Assembly: GCF_001485475.2 (NCBI RefSeq)
Contig: NZ_DF977003.1
Coordinates: forward strand, 372,001 to 436,000
Length of the DNA stretch: 64,000 nucleotides
Direction of reading: 5' to 3'
From: Tepidanaerobacter syntrophicus
GTDB taxonomy: Bacteria > Bacillota > Thermosediminibacteria > Thermosediminibacterales > Tepidanaerobacteraceae
The position numbers and the translations under genes are program-made. Below are positions 21,655 through 47,990 of this stretch, one piece after another. Positions within the stretch are counted from its first letter, which is position 1, and every line of letters begins with the position of its first letter. Under the pieces are notes generated by a model. It was not told the origin of the DNA and ran no database searches. It saw only the letters and a program-made list of their open reading frames with translations.

Positions 21655-22265
21655 ATGTCAAAGCAGGAGCAGGCGGTGCAGTATTCTAGTCAAAACCACT
21701 CCTCTGAAGGCGGGGCTAAAAATCCGTCGAGGGCACATCGATGAAGTTCTTGGTGCTGGCCGCTGACGCCCAGTCGGGGGCTGGTGCTGGGAGTAAGGAG
21801 GATGGGGCGATCTACAATGGCATGTAGGCGTTGACCCTACCTCCGCGGAGACCTAAGTGCGTGGCTCCAAGAAAATACTGAAAGTTACGGCTTAGGGTGT
21901 GAACCTGCATCCGATGAATGTTGGGTGCAGCGTAGCCTGCCTTGAGTGGGATGGGCGGAAAAAGGATGTTACTTGATATGTGGTTTGGCCAAACCGCATA
22001 TCAAATCTTTACCTTTGAAATCCATCCTGCAAAAGAGGCTAGGAGGAGTCAGGTTTTGGTGAGGAAAACTCCTAGACTGTTCCGCAAGGAGATAGACAGG
22101 GGATTACAGTGTGGACTAAGTGGCAATCTAGCCCTGTTTTTGGCAACAAAGCAGCGGTGGACTTAAAGGGGAACCGTCTTTTCGGCAACGATTAGATGTC
22201 TGCCGGGGAAATCCTGCTAGACCTAAGCCACAAAATTTACCCTGCCTATTACCGCCTGCTCACGT
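21655..22265 (+). ncRNA. OLE RNA (ornate, large, extremophilic RNA)
   Basis: A non-coding block of about 610 nt, much richer in G+C than its surroundings, lies between ispA and a membrane protein of the OapA type. Size, position and many internal complementary segments (GGGGGCTGGTGCTGGG, CGGGGCTAAAAATCCGTCGAG, GGTTTGGCCAAACC) fit OLE RNA, which is found next to isoprenoid genes in extremophilic anaerobic Firmicutes. OLE forms a membrane RNP with OapA and other partners and is linked to Mg2+, cold and alcohol stress in Bacillus halodurans. Open frames inside it (such as 21942-22166) have no ribosome sites and are not genes. Confidence 0.9.
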
Positions 22266-22285
22266 ATAAAAATGGAGGTAATTTA

Positions 22286-30059: not shown

Positions 30060-30097
30060 TATAAAAAATTAAATATGTACCTCATCTCAGAAAGAGT

Positions 30098-30281
30098 TGA
30101 GGTAGAGGTGCGATAGGTCAAGAGTAAATTTGTGGAGACTTGGGAAAGTCAATTAAACAAATCGAAAGGGACCATCGCCGAAGTGTGGTTTCCCCAAAGC
30201 CACGCTGGGCTTATGCCGAATAGGTATAAGACTGTCACCAAAGTTTTAATTTAACTAAGATTTTGGTGAAGCGCTACTTCA
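30098..30281 (+). promoter_or_regulatory. Lysine riboswitch (L-box)
   Basis: The aptamer shows the class signature in order: AGAGGTGCG, TCAAGAGTA, GAAAGGGACC, ATCGCCGAAG, GCTGGGCTTATGCCGAATAG, and the closing GCGCTACTTC pairing back to GAGGTAGAGGTGC. Lysine binding stabilises the aptamer and favours the downstream terminator, lowering lysA expression. Confidence 0.96.
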
Positions 30282-30312
30282 GGAAGAGAGAGGTATTTGC
30301 CTAAAAAACTAA

Positions 30313-30364: not shown

Positions 30365-31699
30365 ATGTATCATGGACCGTGCAAGATTAATGAACTTGGT
30401 CATTTGGAAATAGGTGGGTGCGATGCTGTAGAACTTGCAAAAGAATTTGGAACACCCTTATATGTTATGGACGAAGAATGTATACGTGAAAATTGCCGTT
30501 TATATAAGGAAAATTTAAATAGTTTATATAAAAACAGTGATGTGATATATGCCGGAAAAGCTTTTCTTACTGTTGAAATGTGTAAATTAATAGAAGAAGA
30601 AGGATTAAGCTTAGATGTGGTATCCGGTGGCGAACTTTACATGGCACTTCAAGCCGATTTTCCTGCAAAAAGAATATACTTCCATGGGAATAATAAATCC
30701 TATGATGAACTCGAGATGGCAGTAAGGCATGGGGTAGGACATATAATAGTAGATAATTTCTATGAGTTGGAGCTGCTAAGAGATATTACCAGTAAACTTT
30801 CAGGCAGAAAAGTAAAAATACTTCTTCGCCTCACGCCCGGAATCGAGGCACATACTCATGATTATATAAAGACAGGTCAAATTGATTCCAAATTTGGCTT
30901 TGGTTTAGAAAATGGACATGCTTTTATGGCCATAGAAAATGCACTAAGCATTAAAAATGTAAAATTGATGGGATTCCACTGCCATATAGGCTCACAAATA
31001 TTTGAAAAAGAGCCCTTTAGAGAAGCAGCTGATATAATGGTGCATTTTGCAAAGATGGTTGAAGAAAAATATGGATTTAAGACCCAAGAAATAGATTTTG
31101 GCGGTGGATTCGGTGTAAGATACACAGAAGAAGATAAGCCTTTAGAAGTAAGAGACTATCTTGAAACTCTTGTTGAATCGGTTATAGAATCCTGTGAAAA
31201 ATATAATCTATCCGCACCTAAGATATTAATAGAACCGGGAAGAGCGATAGTTGGAGAAGCCGGCGTCACTTTATATACTATAGGCGCCATAAAGAATATC
31301 CCAGGAATTAGAAAATATGTCAGTGTAGATGGCGGAATGAGTGATAATATACGACCTGCCCTTTATAATGCAAAGTACTCAGCTGCTATTGCAAATAAAG
31401 CAAAATGGCCGGCCGAGGAAACTGTTTCTATTGCCGGAAAATGTTGCGAATCTGGCGACATGTTAATTTGGGACATAGATTTGCCTAAAATTGCTCCCGG
31501 CGATATATTAGCTGTCTTTACAACAGGTGCATATCACTATTCTATGGCAAGCAATTATAATATGCTGCCAAGACCTGCTGTAATTTTTGTAAGGAACAAA
31601 ACAGCGCGGCTGGTTGTGCGCAGACAAACATATGAGGATTTACTAAGTTATGATATTTCGCTGCCTAGCGCAGCTAAAGCGTTTTCTGCAAGTGTTTAG
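30365..31699 (+). CDS. lysA: Diaminopimelate decarboxylase
   Basis: LysA converts meso-diaminopimelate to lysine. The 444-aa fold-type III PLP enzyme has the cofactor lysine in IYAGKAFLT (Lys65). The phosphate-binding GFHCHIGSQI and FGGGFGVRY lie within the barrel, and EPGRAIVGEAG follows. The C-terminal CCESGDML has the Cys/Glu substrate residues. It is a single-gene unit under a lysine riboswitch. Confidence 0.96.
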   Translation: MYHGPCKINELGHLEIGGCDAVELAKEFGTPLYVMDEECIRENCRLYKENLNSLYKNSDVIYAGKAFLTVEMCKLIEEEGLSLDVVSGGELYMALQADFPAKRIYFHGNNKSYDELEMAVRHGVGHIIVDNFYELELLRDITSKLSGRKVKILLRLTPGIEAHTHDYIKTGQIDSKFGFGLENGHAFMAIENALSIKNVKLMGFHCHIGSQIFEKEPFREAADIMVHFAKMVEEKYGFKTQEIDFGGGFGVRYTEEDKPLEVRDYLETLVESVIESCEKYNLSAPKILIEPGRAIVGEAGVTLYTIGAIKNIPGIRKYVSVDGGMSDNIRPALYNAKYSAAIANKAKWPAEETVSIAGKCCESGDMLIWDIDLPKIAPGDILAVFTTGAYHYSMASNYNMLPRPAVIFVRNKTARLVVRRQTYEDLLSYDISLPSAAKAFSASV

Positions 31700-34971: not shown

Positions 34972-35394
34972 ATGGGAGATCCTTATAAGGATAAAATGTT
35001 TAAGTCAAATCCATATGCCAAGAAAAAACCCTTAAAGGGAAATCTTGTTGTGGTGCTAGACGGAAAATATGAAAACCGCGGCCTAAATCTTATTCAACAG
35101 CCATCAAGATGTCTTGCCGCAAATGACGTGCATGAAATGATTTTAACAGATGAAGACAAGAAACCCGGAGAAGTAGTAAATAAAATTGCATACATAGGTT
35201 TTTTTGCCGTTAAGGAAAGTGCAGTCATTGTTGCAGGTGACGAAGTTAAAATTAACGGAGAGATCATCGGGAAGATTGCAGGATTTGATGAGACGCACAT
35301 GCCTAACCATTACAATATCGTAATATATGGCAAGGATCGCATTTCCGGAAATGAAAGAAATCTTAACCTTGATGATGAAGTTATCATTGGTTAG
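34972..35394 (+). CDS. Unrecognised 140-aa protein, first gene of the PLP/flavoprotein operon
   Basis: I do not recognise the family. The first 30 residues are basic and probably extended (YKDKMFKSNPYAKKKPLKG). Then follow beta-rich segments: GNLVVVLDGKYENRGLNLI, a middle IAYIGFFAVKESAVIVAGDE and KINGEIIGKIAGFDETHMPNHYN. The C-terminus is acidic. No signal peptide, membrane helix or Cys motif is seen, so it is a small soluble protein, perhaps a subunit or metabolite-binding partner of the enzymes downstream. It follows AGGAGG. A TATAAT at 34925-34930 may belong to its promoter, though the -35 is weak. Confidence 0.75.
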   Translation: MGDPYKDKMFKSNPYAKKKPLKGNLVVVLDGKYENRGLNLIQQPSRCLAANDVHEMILTDEDKKPGEVVNKIAYIGFFAVKESAVIVAGDEVKINGEIIGKIAGFDETHMPNHYNIVIYGKDRISGNERNLNLDDEVIIG

Positions 35395-35437: not shown

Positions 35438-35896
35438 ATGTCTTTTGAAAAAAAATTGCAGGAAATGGGAATTACCTTACCTGAGCCACCGAAACCCGTA
35501 GCAGCATATGTTCCCGGCGTTAAAGTCGACAAATATATTTATACTGCCGGCCAGATACCTTTTGTAGGCGGCGAACTGAAGTACAAGGGCAAAGCTGGTA
35601 AAGAGGTATCGGTTGAAGAAGCTTATGAAGCGGCAAAGATATGTGCATTAAACTGCCTAAGTATTGTTAAGTCTTTGGCAGGCAGCCTTGATAATGTGGA
35701 AAAAGTAGTTAAAGTAGTTGGGTTTGTAAATAGTGCAGATGGATTCAACCAGCAGCCAAAAGTTATAAACGGTGCTTCTGAATTGATAGGCGAGATTTTC
35801 GGAGAAGCAGGAGCTCATGCTCGTTCAGCTGTTGGCGTAAATCAGCTCCCTATGGATGCTACTTGCGAAGTTGAGCTTATAGTAAAGTTAAAATAA
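35438..35896 (+). CDS. RidA family protein (imine deaminase-like)
   Basis: The 152-aa protein shows the RidA/YjgF fold: KYIYTAGQIPFVGGELKYKG, YEAAKICALNCLSIVKSLAG, VVKVVGFVNSADGF. The C-terminal RSAVGVNQLPMDATCEVELI includes the conserved substrate Arg. RidA hydrolyses reactive enamine/imine intermediates released by PLP enzymes. A PLP enzyme gene follows 18 bp later, so detoxifying or completing its reaction is a reasonable role. It is longer at the N-terminus than classical RidA (about 125 aa), like the LF-type subgroup. Strong AAAGGAGG site. Confidence 0.88.
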   Translation: MSFEKKLQEMGITLPEPPKPVAAYVPGVKVDKYIYTAGQIPFVGGELKYKGKAGKEVSVEEAYEAAKICALNCLSIVKSLAGSLDNVEKVVKVVGFVNSADGFNQQPKVINGASELIGEIFGEAGAHARSAVGVNQLPMDATCEVELIVKLK

Positions 35897-37476: not shown

Positions 37477-38760
37477 ATGCCAAAAGTAGTTGTTATTGGT
37501 GGTGGCTGGTCTGGTTCAGGTGCTGCTTTGGCAGCAAAAAAAGCAGGTGCTGATGTAGTGCTTCTTGAAAGAGCTGATATGCTCTTAGGCACTGGCCTTG
37601 TGGGCGGAATCATGAGAAATAATGGAAGATATACAGCAGCTGAAGAAATGATAGCAATGGGCGGCGGCGAACTGTTCCAGTTGATGGACAAGGTTTCTCG
37701 ACATAGAAATATTGAGTTTCCGGGACACAAGCATGCATCTTTATATGATGTGGCATTAGCCGAACCTGCGGTAAAGAAAGCGCTAATAGATGCCGGTATT
37801 GAAGTTCATACCGAAAGCAGGGTAACTGATGTAGAAGCTGACGGCAACAAAATTTTAGCTGTTGTAACTGATGATGGAAGAAAATATGAAGGCGATGTTT
37901 TTGTTGAGTGTACAGGTACTGCCGGTCCTCAAGTAAACTGCACAAAATACGGCAATGGCTGTGCCATGTGCATATACAGGTGCCATAGCTACGGAGGAAG
38001 AGTCAGTGTTGCAGCTAAAATGGGCGTAAAGGAAATGATGGCAAAGAAGGCCGACGGCACATATGGTGCAATGAGCGGATCGTGTAAACTCTTAAAAGAG
38101 TCGCTTTCAAAGGAGATCGTCGACAAGTTAAATAGTACAGGCGTTGCAGTTATACCGGTACCGGAACATGCTAGAGAAGATGCAAAAATCCTTACAAAAA
38201 AGGCATGCCAGCAATATGCACTCAATGAATATGTAGAAAATGTAATTTTACTTGACACAGGCCATGCAAAACTAATGACACCTTTCTTCCCCCTTGATAA
38301 CTTACGGCAAATTCCCGGCTTTGAAAATGCTCGCTACGAGGATCCATATGCAGGAAACCTGGGAAATTCAATAAGATATATGGCAATGTCGCCCAGAGAT
38401 AATCATCTAAAGACAGAAGGCGTAGAAAATCTCTTCTGCGGCGGAGAAAAAGCAGGACCATTAGTAGGCCATACAGAAGCTATTTGCACAGGCACTTTAG
38501 CAGGAGCTAACGCAGTTCGTTGGGCAGTAGGCAAGGAGTTGCTGGAGATCCCGACAGAACTTGCCGTAGGTGATGCCATAGCTTATGTTAAGGAACAAAT
38601 GAAGACTGAGGAAGGCATATCCAAGAAATATACTTTTTCAGGCTCTGTGTATTTTGAACGGATGAAACAACTGGGTTCTTATACAATAGATATAGATGCA
38701 ATTAAAGATAGGGTAGAAAAAGCAGGAATGACAAATATTTTCAATCAAAAGATCATATAA
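37477..38760 (+). CDS. FAD-dependent oxidoreductase (GidA/FumR-like fold), substrate unknown
   Basis: The 427-aa flavoprotein has an N-terminal dinucleotide motif VVVIGGGWSGSGAALAAKKA (GGGWSG at 8-13), an acidic strand end at VVLLERA and GGIMRNNGRY. The second FAD contact is VFVECTGTAGPQ, and a C-terminal FCGGEKAGPLVGHTEAICTG closes the FAD site. A Cys cluster, CTKYGNGCAMCIYRC, lies near 155-170, unusual for this fold and possibly catalytic or metal-binding. It ends the first operon (terminator at 38796). An amino acid or imine oxidation is plausible from context only. Confidence 0.82.
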   Translation: MPKVVVIGGGWSGSGAALAAKKAGADVVLLERADMLLGTGLVGGIMRNNGRYTAAEEMIAMGGGELFQLMDKVSRHRNIEFPGHKHASLYDVALAEPAVKKALIDAGIEVHTESRVTDVEADGNKILAVVTDDGRKYEGDVFVECTGTAGPQVNCTKYGNGCAMCIYRCHSYGGRVSVAAKMGVKEMMAKKADGTYGAMSGSCKLLKESLSKEIVDKLNSTGVAVIPVPEHAREDAKILTKKACQQYALNEYVENVILLDTGHAKLMTPFFPLDNLRQIPGFENARYEDPYAGNLGNSIRYMAMSPRDNHLKTEGVENLFCGGEKAGPLVGHTEAICTGTLAGANAVRWAVGKELLEIPTELAVGDAIAYVKEQMKTEEGISKKYTFSGSVYFERMKQLGSYTIDIDAIKDRVEKAGMTNIFNQKII

Positions 38761-38920: not shown

Positions 38921-39682
38921 ATGCTACACGAAAAGCAGCGATTGCTGTTTTTTATATTAAAAATTATCGATAATTCAAAAGAAACTCCAGTAGGGTCAGG
39001 CTATATACGCAATATGCTAAAATTGCAAGGGTTTGACGTAAGTGAAGCCACTATCGGCAGAATGCTAAAAGAAATGGACTTTGAAGGATATACTGAAAAG
39101 ATTGGATTTAAGGGACGCAATTTAACGCCAAAAGGCAAGGAAAAGCTAGAGGAACTCGAACACGAAAATACAATCAACCGATATGGGAAAGAGTTAATGA
39201 AAGCGATAAAAGGAACAGGCAAACAAGAACTTATTGATATGCTTATTGCGCGAAAGGCGATAGAAAGTCAGCTTGCAAAGCTTGCTGCAATGTATGCTAC
39301 CTATGATGAAATTGAAAAAATGAAAAAGGTTATTGAAAGGCAGCGCGTTCACGTAGAAGAAGGAGTTTCTATAGCTGAAGATGATGTGGAATTTCATAAA
39401 CTTATAGCCAAGGCTGCAAGAAATAAAGTTTTGGATGCCGCGATGGATCTCATAAGACAGCACGGCCAGCTTTCACCTATGTTAGAGTATATAAGAAAAG
39501 AAGTAAAAGGTTCGGTGCTTTTAGAGCATGAAAATATTTTTAAGGCTATTGCCGCAAGAAAACCTGCTCAAGCAGAAAAAGCTATGATACGCCATATTGA
39601 AAGACTTGAAAATGATGTTAGAAAGTACTGGGAAAATTTTTATGAGGAAAATAGTCAAACCGGTAATAGCGATATCGTTTAG
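38921..39682 (+). CDS. Transcriptional regulator: winged helix plus FCD ligand domain
   Basis: The 253-aa protein has a winged helix at residues 1-78 (RLLFFILKIIDNSKETPVGS, DVSEATIGRMLKEMDFEGY, GRNLTPKGKEKLEEL). This looks like the NrpR/RNase R-type HTH rather than a normal GntR helix. Residues 90-240 are an FCD domain: LIARKAIESQLAKLAA, then the metal set Asp/His in DVEFHKLIAKAA, His in LLEHENIFKAI and His in RHIERLE. FCD domains bind carboxylates or amino acids with a metal. It lies between two operons and probably controls one or both. Confidence 0.85.
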   Translation: MLHEKQRLLFFILKIIDNSKETPVGSGYIRNMLKLQGFDVSEATIGRMLKEMDFEGYTEKIGFKGRNLTPKGKEKLEELEHENTINRYGKELMKAIKGTGKQELIDMLIARKAIESQLAKLAAMYATYDEIEKMKKVIERQRVHVEEGVSIAEDDVEFHKLIAKAARNKVLDAAMDLIRQHGQLSPMLEYIRKEVKGSVLLEHENIFKAIAARKPAQAEKAMIRHIERLENDVRKYWENFYEENSQTGNSDIV

Positions 39683-39706: not shown

Positions 39707-39940
39707 ATGCCTGATGTTTTAAAAAAAGTTATGGATGCTGTTGATATAGAAACTTATTTAGTATGCAAAGATGAAGATGAGGCAGAAAAACTAACCTTTA
39801 CTTTAATGGAGCAATTGGGCTTTAAAGATGTATCAATTGTTTTTCTTCAACACCAGGGACCGGGAGCAAGGGTTAGGGCACGGGGATATGTTTATAAGCC
39901 CGGTGACCGCTATGGATGGCTTTCGGATGAGACTTGTTAG
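39707..39940 (+). CDS. Stand-alone aminomutase (OAM/KamE-type) dimerisation-domain protein
   Basis: The 77-aa protein reads as one alpha/beta domain: EDEAEKLTFTLMEQLGFKDV, then SIVFLQHQGPGARVRARGYV. From memory this aligns with the N-terminal dimerisation domain of lysine 5,6-aminomutase beta subunit KamE, which has a helix ending in KKMGFENP followed by a VxHxQxLGxG strand-turn. In KamE and OraE that domain is fused to the B12 domain; here it is a separate gene 15 bp before the B12 mutase. It probably acts as the small subunit. Family assignment is by recalled similarity. It follows AGGAGG. Confidence 0.65.
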   Translation: MPDVLKKVMDAVDIETYLVCKDEDEAEKLTFTLMEQLGFKDVSIVFLQHQGPGARVRARGYVYKPGDRYGWLSDETC

Positions 39941-39955
39941 GGAGGGCAAATCAAC

Positions 39956-41779
39956 ATGGAAAATGAATTTGTAAAAAAGAAAGTACTTTTAGCACCCCTT
40001 GATCCAGTGCACGATATTGGCCTTAAGATGATAAAAAGAGGATTAGAGAAAAGAGGCCATGAAACTATACTTTTGCCACCAGATTATTCTGCTGAAGAAA
40101 TAATAAAGACGATAATAGATAAAAATGTTGATGTAGTTCTTGTCAGCCGCACAATTGGTTACGGCGTTGCGGAAATATTAGGAAAATTCATTGACTTAGC
40201 TGAAGCTGCAGGAATCAGAGATAAAGTGCGCATAGGCATAGGTGGCATGGCGATACGACCGGAACTTGCTGCAGAACTTGGATTTGATGCCGGCTTTGGT
40301 CCCGGTACCACAGTTGAAGAAGCTATTGCTTTTGTGGAAGGAAGGGAATATGTTCCGGCAGAAGGAAAAAATGCAAAGGTTAAAAAAGATATAACAAAAG
40401 GATATGACTATGAATTCCACAATAAACGTATTGAGAAATTACTTGACTCAATTGTAGATGCCATCCTTTCTTATGTAAGCGATAAAACCAGTCCCGCCGT
40501 TTTAAGGGCGCAAATTAGAAGGCAAATGTTAGAATCTAGCGATGAGAGTGAAATACAGAGTCTCAGAAAGGATTACGCAGCTTTGTGCGATGATACGATA
40601 AAATCCTTTTATGAGGCCGGAAAATATCGCCAAAAAACTCGCCCCATGACAGAAGATGAGATAAATTCACTTACAAGATATGTGGATTCGGTAAACGAAC
40701 GGATGAAACCTCTTAATTTGCAGCACACCGGAAAAAATCCCGTAGTTTTTATTCAATATGGCACAGGGTGTCCCTTCATGGATATTGCTCATATTAAGTC
40801 ATGTGAAGCATGGGGAGCTGATGGAGCAGTCCATTTTGACCCGTCTTGGGGAGCTAGAGCCGAGGGATTTTTGGAAGGCTATATAACTCATGAAGAAGAT
40901 GGTTCTGTAATAACATATGAGAACCTTAAAAGCATAAAAAATTCGCTGCTGCCAAGCACACTTTGGCAAGTAAGGGCTCACCGAGGCTTAAATACCCCCG
41001 AAACTGTCCTGCTCGCGGGCAAAATTGGCGCTGATCTTACAAAAATAAACATCGCCTACGGATCCCTTGGAGGAGGCACTGACCCTGAACGTTTAACAGT
41101 AGATGCAGTAGAAGCCATCAAGTATGCGGCTGAGTTTAATATGCCCTTTGATGTTGTAACAAACGAAGAATTATGTGGCGTTCCGGCTTACAAAGCCTTT
41201 GCAGGAATGCTTATAGTATCAAAATTAGGTCTTAGGCTTGGGGGAAAGCCTATTTTACAGCCACTGTTTTGCTATTCGCCGGAAGTTATGATAAGTGGCC
41301 AAATGGAAGACAACTATGTAGACTTTAATGCCGCAAAAATTTATTGTCTCAGAAATATCGTTAATGCCCCTATATGGTGCGGCGCTCCCATAGGATTTTT
41401 GACTCAAACCGAAGATCGAGTTCAATCATCCTTAATGACTGCACTTCACGCATCTCTTGCTTCTTCACTAGGCGTTGACGGAATTTCCATAGCATCGTCT
41501 GACGAAGCATTTTCAGGAGGACCGATTACTGCTCCAGCGAGAATAGACACGCTAAGGGCTACTCAAGCATCTTTTAGATTCTTCGGTCAATCCAATATTA
41601 TTCCTACAGATAACGCTAAGAAATGGGCGGCAGATATCGAAGAAGGTATAGAAAAAACATTGGAACTTGTGGAAAAAAATGGCAACTTTGTTGATGCTTT
41701 GTATAAAGGACTACTAGGAAGCCGCGAAGACGGAGCATATCCCGGCAGAGCCGGAAGAAATTCTGTAACAAAAAAATAA
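39956..41779 (+). CDS. B12-binding domain plus TIM-barrel mutase, aminomutase-like, substrate unknown
   Basis: The 607-aa protein has an N-terminal cobalamin-binding Rossmann domain (8-125): LLAPLDPVHDIGLKMI with the cobalt-ligand-type His19, VDVVLVSRTIGYGVAEIL, RIGIGGMAI and ELGFDAGFGPGTTVEEA. The last part closely recalls KamE. A helical linker (about 135-240) leads to a TIM barrel from about 250: FIQYGTGCPFMDIAHIKSCE, TKINIAYGSLGGGTDP, GISIASSDEAFSGGP. The canonical DxHxxG Asp is shifted (DPVHxxG). The lysine loop that anchors PLP in KamE (about 11 residues after the His) seems absent. Domain order differs from OraE. Probably a coenzyme B12 isomerase. Confidence 0.8.
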   Translation: MENEFVKKKVLLAPLDPVHDIGLKMIKRGLEKRGHETILLPPDYSAEEIIKTIIDKNVDVVLVSRTIGYGVAEILGKFIDLAEAAGIRDKVRIGIGGMAIRPELAAELGFDAGFGPGTTVEEAIAFVEGREYVPAEGKNAKVKKDITKGYDYEFHNKRIEKLLDSIVDAILSYVSDKTSPAVLRAQIRRQMLESSDESEIQSLRKDYAALCDDTIKSFYEAGKYRQKTRPMTEDEINSLTRYVDSVNERMKPLNLQHTGKNPVVFIQYGTGCPFMDIAHIKSCEAWGADGAVHFDPSWGARAEGFLEGYITHEEDGSVITYENLKSIKNSLLPSTLWQVRAHRGLNTPETVLLAGKIGADLTKINIAYGSLGGGTDPERLTVDAVEAIKYAAEFNMPFDVVTNEELCGVPAYKAFAGMLIVSKLGLRLGGKPILQPLFCYSPEVMISGQMEDNYVDFNAAKIYCLRNIVNAPIWCGAPIGFLTQTEDRVQSSLMTALHASLASSLGVDGISIASSDEAFSGGPITAPARIDTLRATQASFRFFGQSNIIPTDNAKKWAADIEEGIEKTLELVEKNGNFVDALYKGLLGSREDGAYPGRAGRNSVTKK

Positions 41780-46721: not shown

Positions 46722-47990
46722 ATGAAGTCTTCTGAACAGATACTTAAAGTTGAAAATCTTGGTTTTAAATACAATGAAAAAGAAATCCTCAAAGACATAT
46801 GCTTTACTTTGGAAGTTGGCGATTTCGTAGGTATTTTAGGCCCAAACGGCTGCGGTAAAACAACCTTGCTTAAAAATATTAACCGCTGGTTAAAGCCTGA
46901 TACAGGAAATATATATGTTAATGGGGAAAGTATCTATAGAGTAACAATTAAGGATTTGGCAAAGCGAGTAGCTACCGTTCCTCAAGACACTTATTTGGAT
47001 GTAGCTTTTACAGTTGAGCAAATAGTGCTAATGGGAAGGAATCCCCATCTAAAAAATTTTGAATCAGAGCAAAAAGAAGATATAGCTATCGTAGAAGATG
47101 CCATGAAGTCCATGGACATATTGCACCTAAGAGATAAGCCTGTACATCAATTAAGCGGCGGTGAAAGGCAAAGAGTTCTGATTGCAAGAGCACTTGCCCA
47201 GCAGCCATCTCTTCTGCTTTTAGACGAACCTACATCCCATCTTGATATTAACTATCAATGGGAATTATTAGGCCTTTTAAAGGATTTATGCCTCAAAAAG
47301 AGTTTGACGATATTAGTTGTGCTCCATGATATAAATTTGGCGTCAATGTTTTGCAACAAGATAATTTTGCTAAAGGATCATAAGATATTTAAAATGGGAG
47401 ATTTAAATGAAGTCCTAAATGAAGACAATATTAAAGCAGTCTTTGACATGGATGTAAGAGTTGTTACTCCTAAAGGCAATCCTAAACCTGTAGTTATTTT
47501 TTTGAATACGTCAGATGAGAATGAGGCGATATTTGCAAAAAAACCTAAGCCTTTTCATAAGCTTCATGTAATATGCGGCGGAGGAGAAGGCGAGGAATTA
47601 CTGAGTTATCTGGGACAACGTGGGTATGAAGTATCCGTAGGAGTTCTAAATAAAGGAGATAGTGATTGGGAAACAGCTCGCCGCTTAGGCTTTGATATTG
47701 TTGAGGAGATACCTTTTTCACCAATAAGCGATGAAAATGCGGCAAAAAACATCTCTTATATAGAGAAAGCCGATGCGGTGATTTTAGCAAATATTCCCTT
47801 CGGTCTAGGCAATTTAAAAAATATTATGTGTCTTGAAGGCTTCATAGGTCGAAAAGATATTTACATTTTAGAAGAAAACGATATAAACGAAAGAGATTAC
47901 ACCAATGGAGCAGCAGTCAAGATTTACAACAAAATCAAAGACAAAGCAGTTGTTTTTAAATCAATGCAGGAGCTTAAAGAAATAATATAA
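46722..47990 (+). CDS. ABC transporter ATPase (FecE/BtuD type) with extra C-terminal domain
   Basis: The 422-aa protein has an ABC ATPase at 1-260: Walker A GPNGCGKTTLL, Q-loop TVPQDTYL, signature QLSGGERQRV, Walker B LLLLDEPTSHLD and the switch His in VVLHDINLA. This is the iron-siderophore/cobalamin importer type. Residues 265-422 form an additional alpha/beta domain (HKLHVICGGGEGEELLSYLG, AVILANIPFGLGNLKNIMC) of unknown role. No permease or binding protein is adjacent, so it is an orphan. In a B12-using organism a corrinoid link is possible. Confidence 0.85.
   Translation: MKSSEQILKVENLGFKYNEKEILKDICFTLEVGDFVGILGPNGCGKTTLLKNINRWLKPDTGNIYVNGESIYRVTIKDLAKRVATVPQDTYLDVAFTVEQIVLMGRNPHLKNFESEQKEDIAIVEDAMKSMDILHLRDKPVHQLSGGERQRVLIARALAQQPSLLLLDEPTSHLDINYQWELLGLLKDLCLKKSLTILVVLHDINLASMFCNKIILLKDHKIFKMGDLNEVLNEDNIKAVFDMDVRVVTPKGNPKPVVIFLNTSDENEAIFAKKPKPFHKLHVICGGGEGEELLSYLGQRGYEVSVGVLNKGDSDWETARRLGFDIVEEIPFSPISDENAAKNISYIEKADAVILANIPFGLGNLKNIMCLEGFIGRKDIYILEENDINERDYTNGAAVKIYNKIKDKAVVFKSMQELKEII

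Follow-up and report, generated by a model that had tools for sequence, protein, structure and literature searches.

Gene content and distribution of the locus

The window analyzed here is a 64,000-nt stretch of the Tepidanaerobacter syntrophicus genome (GCF_001485475.2, NZ_DF977003.1, positions 372,001–436,000, forward strand) that includes the genes and the motif listed in Table 1. The reading frame of the 607-residue mutase-like protein is uninterrupted. Pfam detected PF02310 (B12-binding) alone in this protein, and the remaining ~480 residues produced no match above cut-off. The protein is organized as an N-terminal B12-binding Rossmann domain (residues 7–130), linker or accessory helices (about 153–230), a KamD-type TIM barrel (about 260–545) and a C-terminal tail like that of KamD and OraE.

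Table 1. Positions of the mutase operon genes and the cobalamin motif in the window.
Feature	Position	Strand	Evidence and distribution
DUF6917 protein	34972..35394	+	PF21891 E 1e-49; 35/47 loci
RidA/YjgF-family imine/enamine deaminase-like protein	35438..35896	+	PF14588 86.8 bits; 23/47 loci
Fold-type-I PLP enzyme, 488 aa	35915..37381	+	42/47 loci; local DgaE/SelA/SepSecS-like matches only
GidA-like FAD oxidoreductase	37477..38760	+	PF01134 122 bits; 30/47 loci
FCD-domain transcriptional regulator	38921..39682	+	PF07729 78 bits; 35/47 loci
Separate dimerization subunit, OAM_dimer-like, 77 aa, beta-alpha-beta-beta	39707..39940	+	Foldseek/VIA, HMM
AdoCbl-dependent mutase-like protein, 607 aa	39956..41779	+	PF02310 61.6 bits; AF2 model pLDDT 85; VIA Z 31.9
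Shifted cobalamin motif DPVHDIG, mutase residues 16–22	40001..40021	+	Kept in 65/65 homologues, I/V/M at residue 21
KamB-like reactivase subunit, P-loop, 362 aa	41808..42896	+	NF052386 242 bits, cut-off 210; 41/47 loci

A scan of genome contigs located 38 loci with the mutase gene, and when 299 genomes of the phylum were searched with a profile, 30 full-length mutase loci were recovered from 28 of them, about a tenth. Profile scores fell across a clean gap from 819 to 73 bits, which identifies the mutases as a discrete family. The most divergent member found (L109:7358-9277; 819 bits) retains the cobalamin motif as DPVHDVG, and no recognizable dimerization ORF, PLP enzyme or KamB was present within the stretch fetched for this locus. 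A phage source of the mutase was discounted, as none of the 24 viral stretches that matched a pattern encodes a relative.

Operon partners were counted in 47 loci with rearranged gene orders, through which the operon has been kept. Four loci (L022-L025) are reduced to the regulator, the dimerization subunit, the mutase and the PLP enzyme with nothing else of the operon, and the retention of the 488-residue PLP enzyme in this minimal set marks it as the closest functional partner of the mutase. The PLP lysine of the partner enzyme is likely to be K291 in the sequence SMDKA. In the FAD enzyme, residues C155, C162, C165 and C169 are invariant in the alignment around KYGNGCAMCIYRC and possibly form an Fe-S site, perhaps [4Fe-4S]. 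Several relatives have a paralogue of the FAD enzyme downstream, beside an electron-transfer protein that resembles sulfide and dihydroorotate dehydrogenases. The DUF6917 protein carries a conserved GxDxTHxPNHxN motif, and at L041:3143-4048 the DUF6917 and RidA-family proteins are fused in a single ORF of 302 residues, which suggests that the two act together. KamB is known as the reactivase subunit of lysine 5,6-aminomutase. A search of the genome with PF09043 found one separate OraE and nothing else, and thus the KamB-like reactivase here probably serves the 607-residue mutase. Searches of solved structures with the PLP enzyme, the FAD enzyme and DUF6917 returned superfamily-level matches or none, and a permease that is present in some loci matched neither Pfam nor NCBIfam. 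Taken together, these genes suggest that an amino compound is catabolized by way of imine intermediates. In the open literature that was searched, no description of the 607-residue mutase family, no paper on DUF6917 and no operon of this make-up tied to an aminomutase was found.

Other elements of the window lie outside the operon. A lysine riboswitch (30095-30284) is located 5′ of a diaminopimelate decarboxylase-like (lysA-like) gene (30365-31699); although it is near to the mutase operon, the riboswitch belongs to the lysA-like gene and was set aside as a hint to the mutase substrate. Neither in the window nor in eight further loci was an RNA element detected beside the operon. A full-length OLE RNA (520 bits) is present at 21657-22271. 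Downstream of speE- and speB-like genes, positions 46722-47990 encode an ABC-type cobalamin/iron transporter-like ATPase of 422 residues with a long additional C-terminal domain.

The cobalamin-binding domain and the 77-residue subunit

The presumed lower cobalt ligand of the mutase is H19. In an alignment of 65 full-length homologues, residues D16, P17, V18, H19, D20, G22 and K24 are invariant, which places Pro two residues before the histidine and Asp three residues before it in all 65 proteins. The family therefore departs from the DxHxxG class in which Asp is at the −2 position. The query recovered six further B12-domain loci from the same genome, of which five (L002, L003, L004, L006 and L007) read D-x-H-x-x-G and the sixth (L005) had no match to the pattern; it is found also in two additional B12-domain loci (L050 and L051) and in genuine KamE. 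As these other domains keep the canonical arrangement, the replacement of Asp by Pro is a family-specific trait and not noise. A frameshift or sequence error behind the motif also was dismissed on the strength of the intact ORF and the 65 homologues.

The next conserved glycine after the histidine is at H+15, a canonical length which sequence comparison reveals also in the GlmS-, MMCM- and MetH-type domains of the same genome, whereas in the OraE of this genome the equivalent glycine is at H+19 and the PLP lysine is at H+11. The loop of the mutase is four residues shorter than that of OraE, and the Rossmann-domain lysine that anchors PLP (KamE K144, OraE K629, at H+11) is missing. KamE K144 is listed among the residues that contact PLP (PMC3958899). 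The lysine nearest to this position, K27, is Lys in 44 homologues, Arg in 18 and Asn, Gln or Ala in three. HMMER pairs K27 with the OraE lysine, but the residue was rejected as a PLP anchor because it is not conserved. Elsewhere in the helix that follows the histidine, the only conserved lysine is K24 at H+5, which was rejected in the same role: it is invariant, yet the MMCM-type domain likewise has a lysine here (GAKVV). In other respects the B12 domain is close to that of KamE, as the mutase sequence ELGFDAGFGPG matches ELGYDAGFGPG in KamE, hhalign gave an E-value of 3e-18 and a PDB profile match to KamE had an E-value of 5e-19. The original prediction, made from the sequence of the window, had described the displaced Asp, the KamE-like remainder of the domain and the replacement of the lysine-bearing loop by a shorter helix of the glutamate mutase type. 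The conservation of DPVHDIG in the 65 homologues, the glycine at H+15 and the variability of K27 demonstrate that these observations were correct and hold throughout the family.

The 77-residue ORF, which is unannotated and did not figure in the original prediction, is positioned between the FCD regulator gene and the mutase gene. In profile searches it adjoins the mutase on the 5′ side in every locus for which the DNA reaches that far, and the HMM detected it in 44 of the 47 loci; of the other three, L109 is without it and the DNA of L013 and L042 is cut short. The predicted structure (pLDDT 88) matched best, in both Foldseek and VIA-align, to the dimerization domains of OraE (residues 511–586) and KamE (residues 17–97). 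Foldseek rmsd values were 1.1–2.1 over 50–54 columns, and although the E-values and VIA Z scores (6.7–7.4) are modest for a domain this small, the six best VIA entries all were aminomutases. The PF16554 (OAM_dimer) match was weak (E 0.019 for the L012 copy) and the KamE profile agreed weakly. With the 77-residue ORF as the dimerization domain in its own gene, the predicted structures indicate that the full aminomutase domain set is present in a dimerization/Rossmann-barrel arrangement. The order of B12 domain and then barrel is the reverse of that in OraE (barrel-dimerization-Rossmann), as was recognized from the outset.

The barrel and its candidate active site

The mutase model was most similar to KamD (1xrs_A/9q1a_C), with a VIA Z score of 31.9 over 389–397 residues in the region of residues 153–607 and with coincident C-termini. 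GlmE (Z 25.2; 334 residues) and OraE (Z 25.0) followed for the barrel. In hhalign comparisons the barrel was colinear with KamD over 418 columns (E 2e-5), and E-values were 1e-3 for OraE and 0.01 for GlmE, the last too weak for mapping of single residues. PF09043 did not match the mutase barrel, and the NCBIfam scores for KamE (54.7 bits; equivalog cut-off 280) and OraE (41.7 bits; cut-off 800) both were below threshold. In a maximum-likelihood tree the mutase family formed its own clade (99/99) on long branches outside KamD and OraE, which grouped together weakly (82/51). A barrel of the KamDE/OraSE class, a KamE-type B12 domain and an OAM-type dimerization domain all are found, and the mutase belongs by descent to the KamDE/OraSE class. 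The proposal that the protein is an aminomutase relative therefore is supported by the KamD-type barrel, the KamE profile, the detached dimerization domain and KamB. As the PLP features are absent and both curated cut-offs are missed, the names lysine aminomutase and ornithine aminomutase are not appropriate for the mutase.

In KamD, PLP is contacted by R184, R268 and S189 at the phosphate, S238 at N1, Y263 through stacking, N299 at the phenolic oxygen, and Y236 (PMC3958899). The KamD motifs could be placed once a uniform numbering shift of one was allowed for, and the residue maps from four MAFFT modes were identical. Sequence identity to KamD is ~15–18%, and single-residue matches in the barrel consequently rest on near-gapless stretches from strand to strand. 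R184 corresponds to D295 (65/65 homologues), which adjoins segments of the model with AF2 confidence below 50 (residues 296–299 and 311–317). S189 corresponds to A300 (64/65), Y236 to A341 (64/65), S238 to R343 (65/65) and R268 to G/A373, so that each of the phosphate and N1 contacts is replaced. The counterpart of N299 is E404 or, alternatively, N403, and the residue that would face the phenolic oxygen thus is ambiguous. The stacking tyrosine is kept as Y368 (65/65) and the glycine-turn GQS is WGA in the mutase. OraE residues H182, E81 and R297, the last of which contacts the substrate carboxylate, correspond to K363, Q267 and G480, respectively. In OraE, E338 makes contact with the adenosyl ribose and helps to bring about Co-C homolysis (PMC4413051); its counterpart, E517, is kept in all 65 homologues. 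Nearly all of the KamD contacts to PLP have been lost from the barrel, and the retention of the radical-initiation residue alongside exchanged PLP residues reads as the trace of a changed mode of substrate binding instead of decay. The idea that the enzyme may work without PLP has gained evidence in that the barrel contacts to the phosphate, ring and N1 also are replaced by other invariant residues.

The alternative raised at the same time, that PLP is anchored elsewhere, keeps a minor share of probability because one barrel lysine, K363, is invariant and by position faces the pocket. According to this scheme the protein still would be a PLP- and AdoCbl-dependent aminomutase in which K363 or another barrel lysine acts as imine partner and R340 and R343 hold the phosphate. 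K363, K413 and K461 vary little or not at all among the 65 homologues, K363 aligns with a substrate-contacting pocket residue of OraE, strand 3 bears two invariant arginines, the stacking tyrosine is kept, and, with a PLP enzyme encoded in the operon, shared PLP chemistry is conceivable. However, the phosphate arginines of KamD and OraE have become Asp and Gly/Ala, the phosphate serine Ala and the N1 serine Arg, the glycine-turn is altered, and a tyrosine at the stacking position is no proof of PLP. A new mode of PLP binding therefore is judged unlikely. A corrinoid protein that is not a mutase, akin to methyltransferases such as MetH and MtaC which share HDIG, is far less credible still. HDIG also occurs in corrinoid domains of the methyltransferase type encoded by this genome, family matches to MtgC, MtbC and MtaC are weak, and 1y80 matches the B12 domain, but the KamD-type barrel, the OAM dimerization domain, KamB and the adenosyl-contacting glutamate instead indicate AdoCbl radical chemistry.

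A candidate PLP-free mutase and its relation to known systems

To our knowledge, only two aminomutases that employ both PLP and AdoCbl have been well studied. We consider it probable that the 607-residue protein and its 77-residue partner constitute an AdoCbl mutase of a third lineage in the KamDE/OraSE class which binds its substrate directly without PLP. The architecture would be shuffled relative to OraE, with the dimerization domain in a separate gene and the Rossmann domain and barrel fused in opposite order. H19 would ligate cobalt in the base-off form, and homolysis of AdoCbl would generate the 5′-deoxyadenosyl radical at the mouth of the barrel. The substrate, probably an amino acid, would be held directly by R340, H342, R343, K363, D295, N403, E404 and E405, which are invariant or nearly invariant in the mutase homologues, and would rearrange with no aldimine being formed, like the substrates of glutamate mutase and ethanolamine ammonia-lyase. 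An amino shift, a carbon-fragment shift or an elimination each would fit the proposal. KamB may assist in reactivation of inactivated mutase, and the neighboring PLP enzyme, FAD enzyme and RidA protein may act before or after the mutase in a catabolic pathway.

A narrower form of this explanation, in which the enzyme is a PLP-free carbon-skeleton mutase that performs glutamate mutase chemistry on a KamD-like fold, is possible but doubtful. GlmE and OraE are level behind KamD in the structural comparison (Z 25), the helix and lysine pattern after the histidine are those of carbon-skeleton mutases, and QVR at R340 recalls QVRHGTPD of GlmE in an alignment by eye only. Arg149 of GlmE, within this motif, is a substrate-binding arginine. 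Weighing against this form, the hhalign match to GlmE is weak and leaves QVRHGTPD unaligned, the tree places the mutase with KamD and OraE and not with GlmE, and the genome already has GlmE and GlmS, its GlmE being a different gene from the mutase. PF06368 (Met_asp_mut_E) had no match in the mutase at E-values up to 1.

Returning to the broader reading of direct, PLP-free substrate binding, the balance of evidence leans toward a naturally occurring PLP-independent enzyme of the "dual-vitamin" aminomutase fold which stands at the center of an undescribed catabolic operon and subjects an amino acid substrate to a new AdoCbl radical rearrangement. In the catalytic model for aminomutases, the tether between PLP and lysine keeps the B12 domain open until substrate breaks the tether (PMC4256349). 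A homologue that shares all three domains yet has neither tether nor PLP site offers a natural test of this model, and also of the way in which radical enzymes keep reactivity in check when PLP is absent. The operon, with its DUF6917, RidA-like, FAD and PLP enzymes, points to an undescribed anaerobic pathway.

Compared with known systems, the mutase shares with lysine 5,6-aminomutase, KamDE (PDB 1xrs, 8t0v, 9q1a), the KamD-type barrel, the KamE-type B12 and dimerization domains, KamB and the active-site tyrosine and glutamate. It differs in that the domains are reordered and split otherwise (KamDE being barrel/dimerization-Rossmann), the PLP lysine is absent, contacts to the phosphate, ring and N1 of PLP are exchanged, DPVH replaces DxH and the operon content is distinct. 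Homologous barrel, dimerization and Rossmann domains, a counterpart of E338 and the DAGFG turn are common to the mutase and ornithine 4,5-aminomutase, OraSE (PDB 3kow-3kp1), whereas OraE is a single chain with Lys at H+11, its R297 and H182 are replaced as described above, and the same genome encodes a separate OraE in addition to the mutase. Glutamate mutase (GlmES/MutSE; PDB 1cb7, 6h9e) is a PLP-free AdoCbl mutase which has the same barrel fold (Z 25) and the same length of post-histidine helix in the B12 domain, but the relation in sequence is weak (hhalign E 0.01), GlmES has no OAM-type dimerization domain, its B12 subunit is separate, and glutamate mutase uses a different reactivase, MutL.
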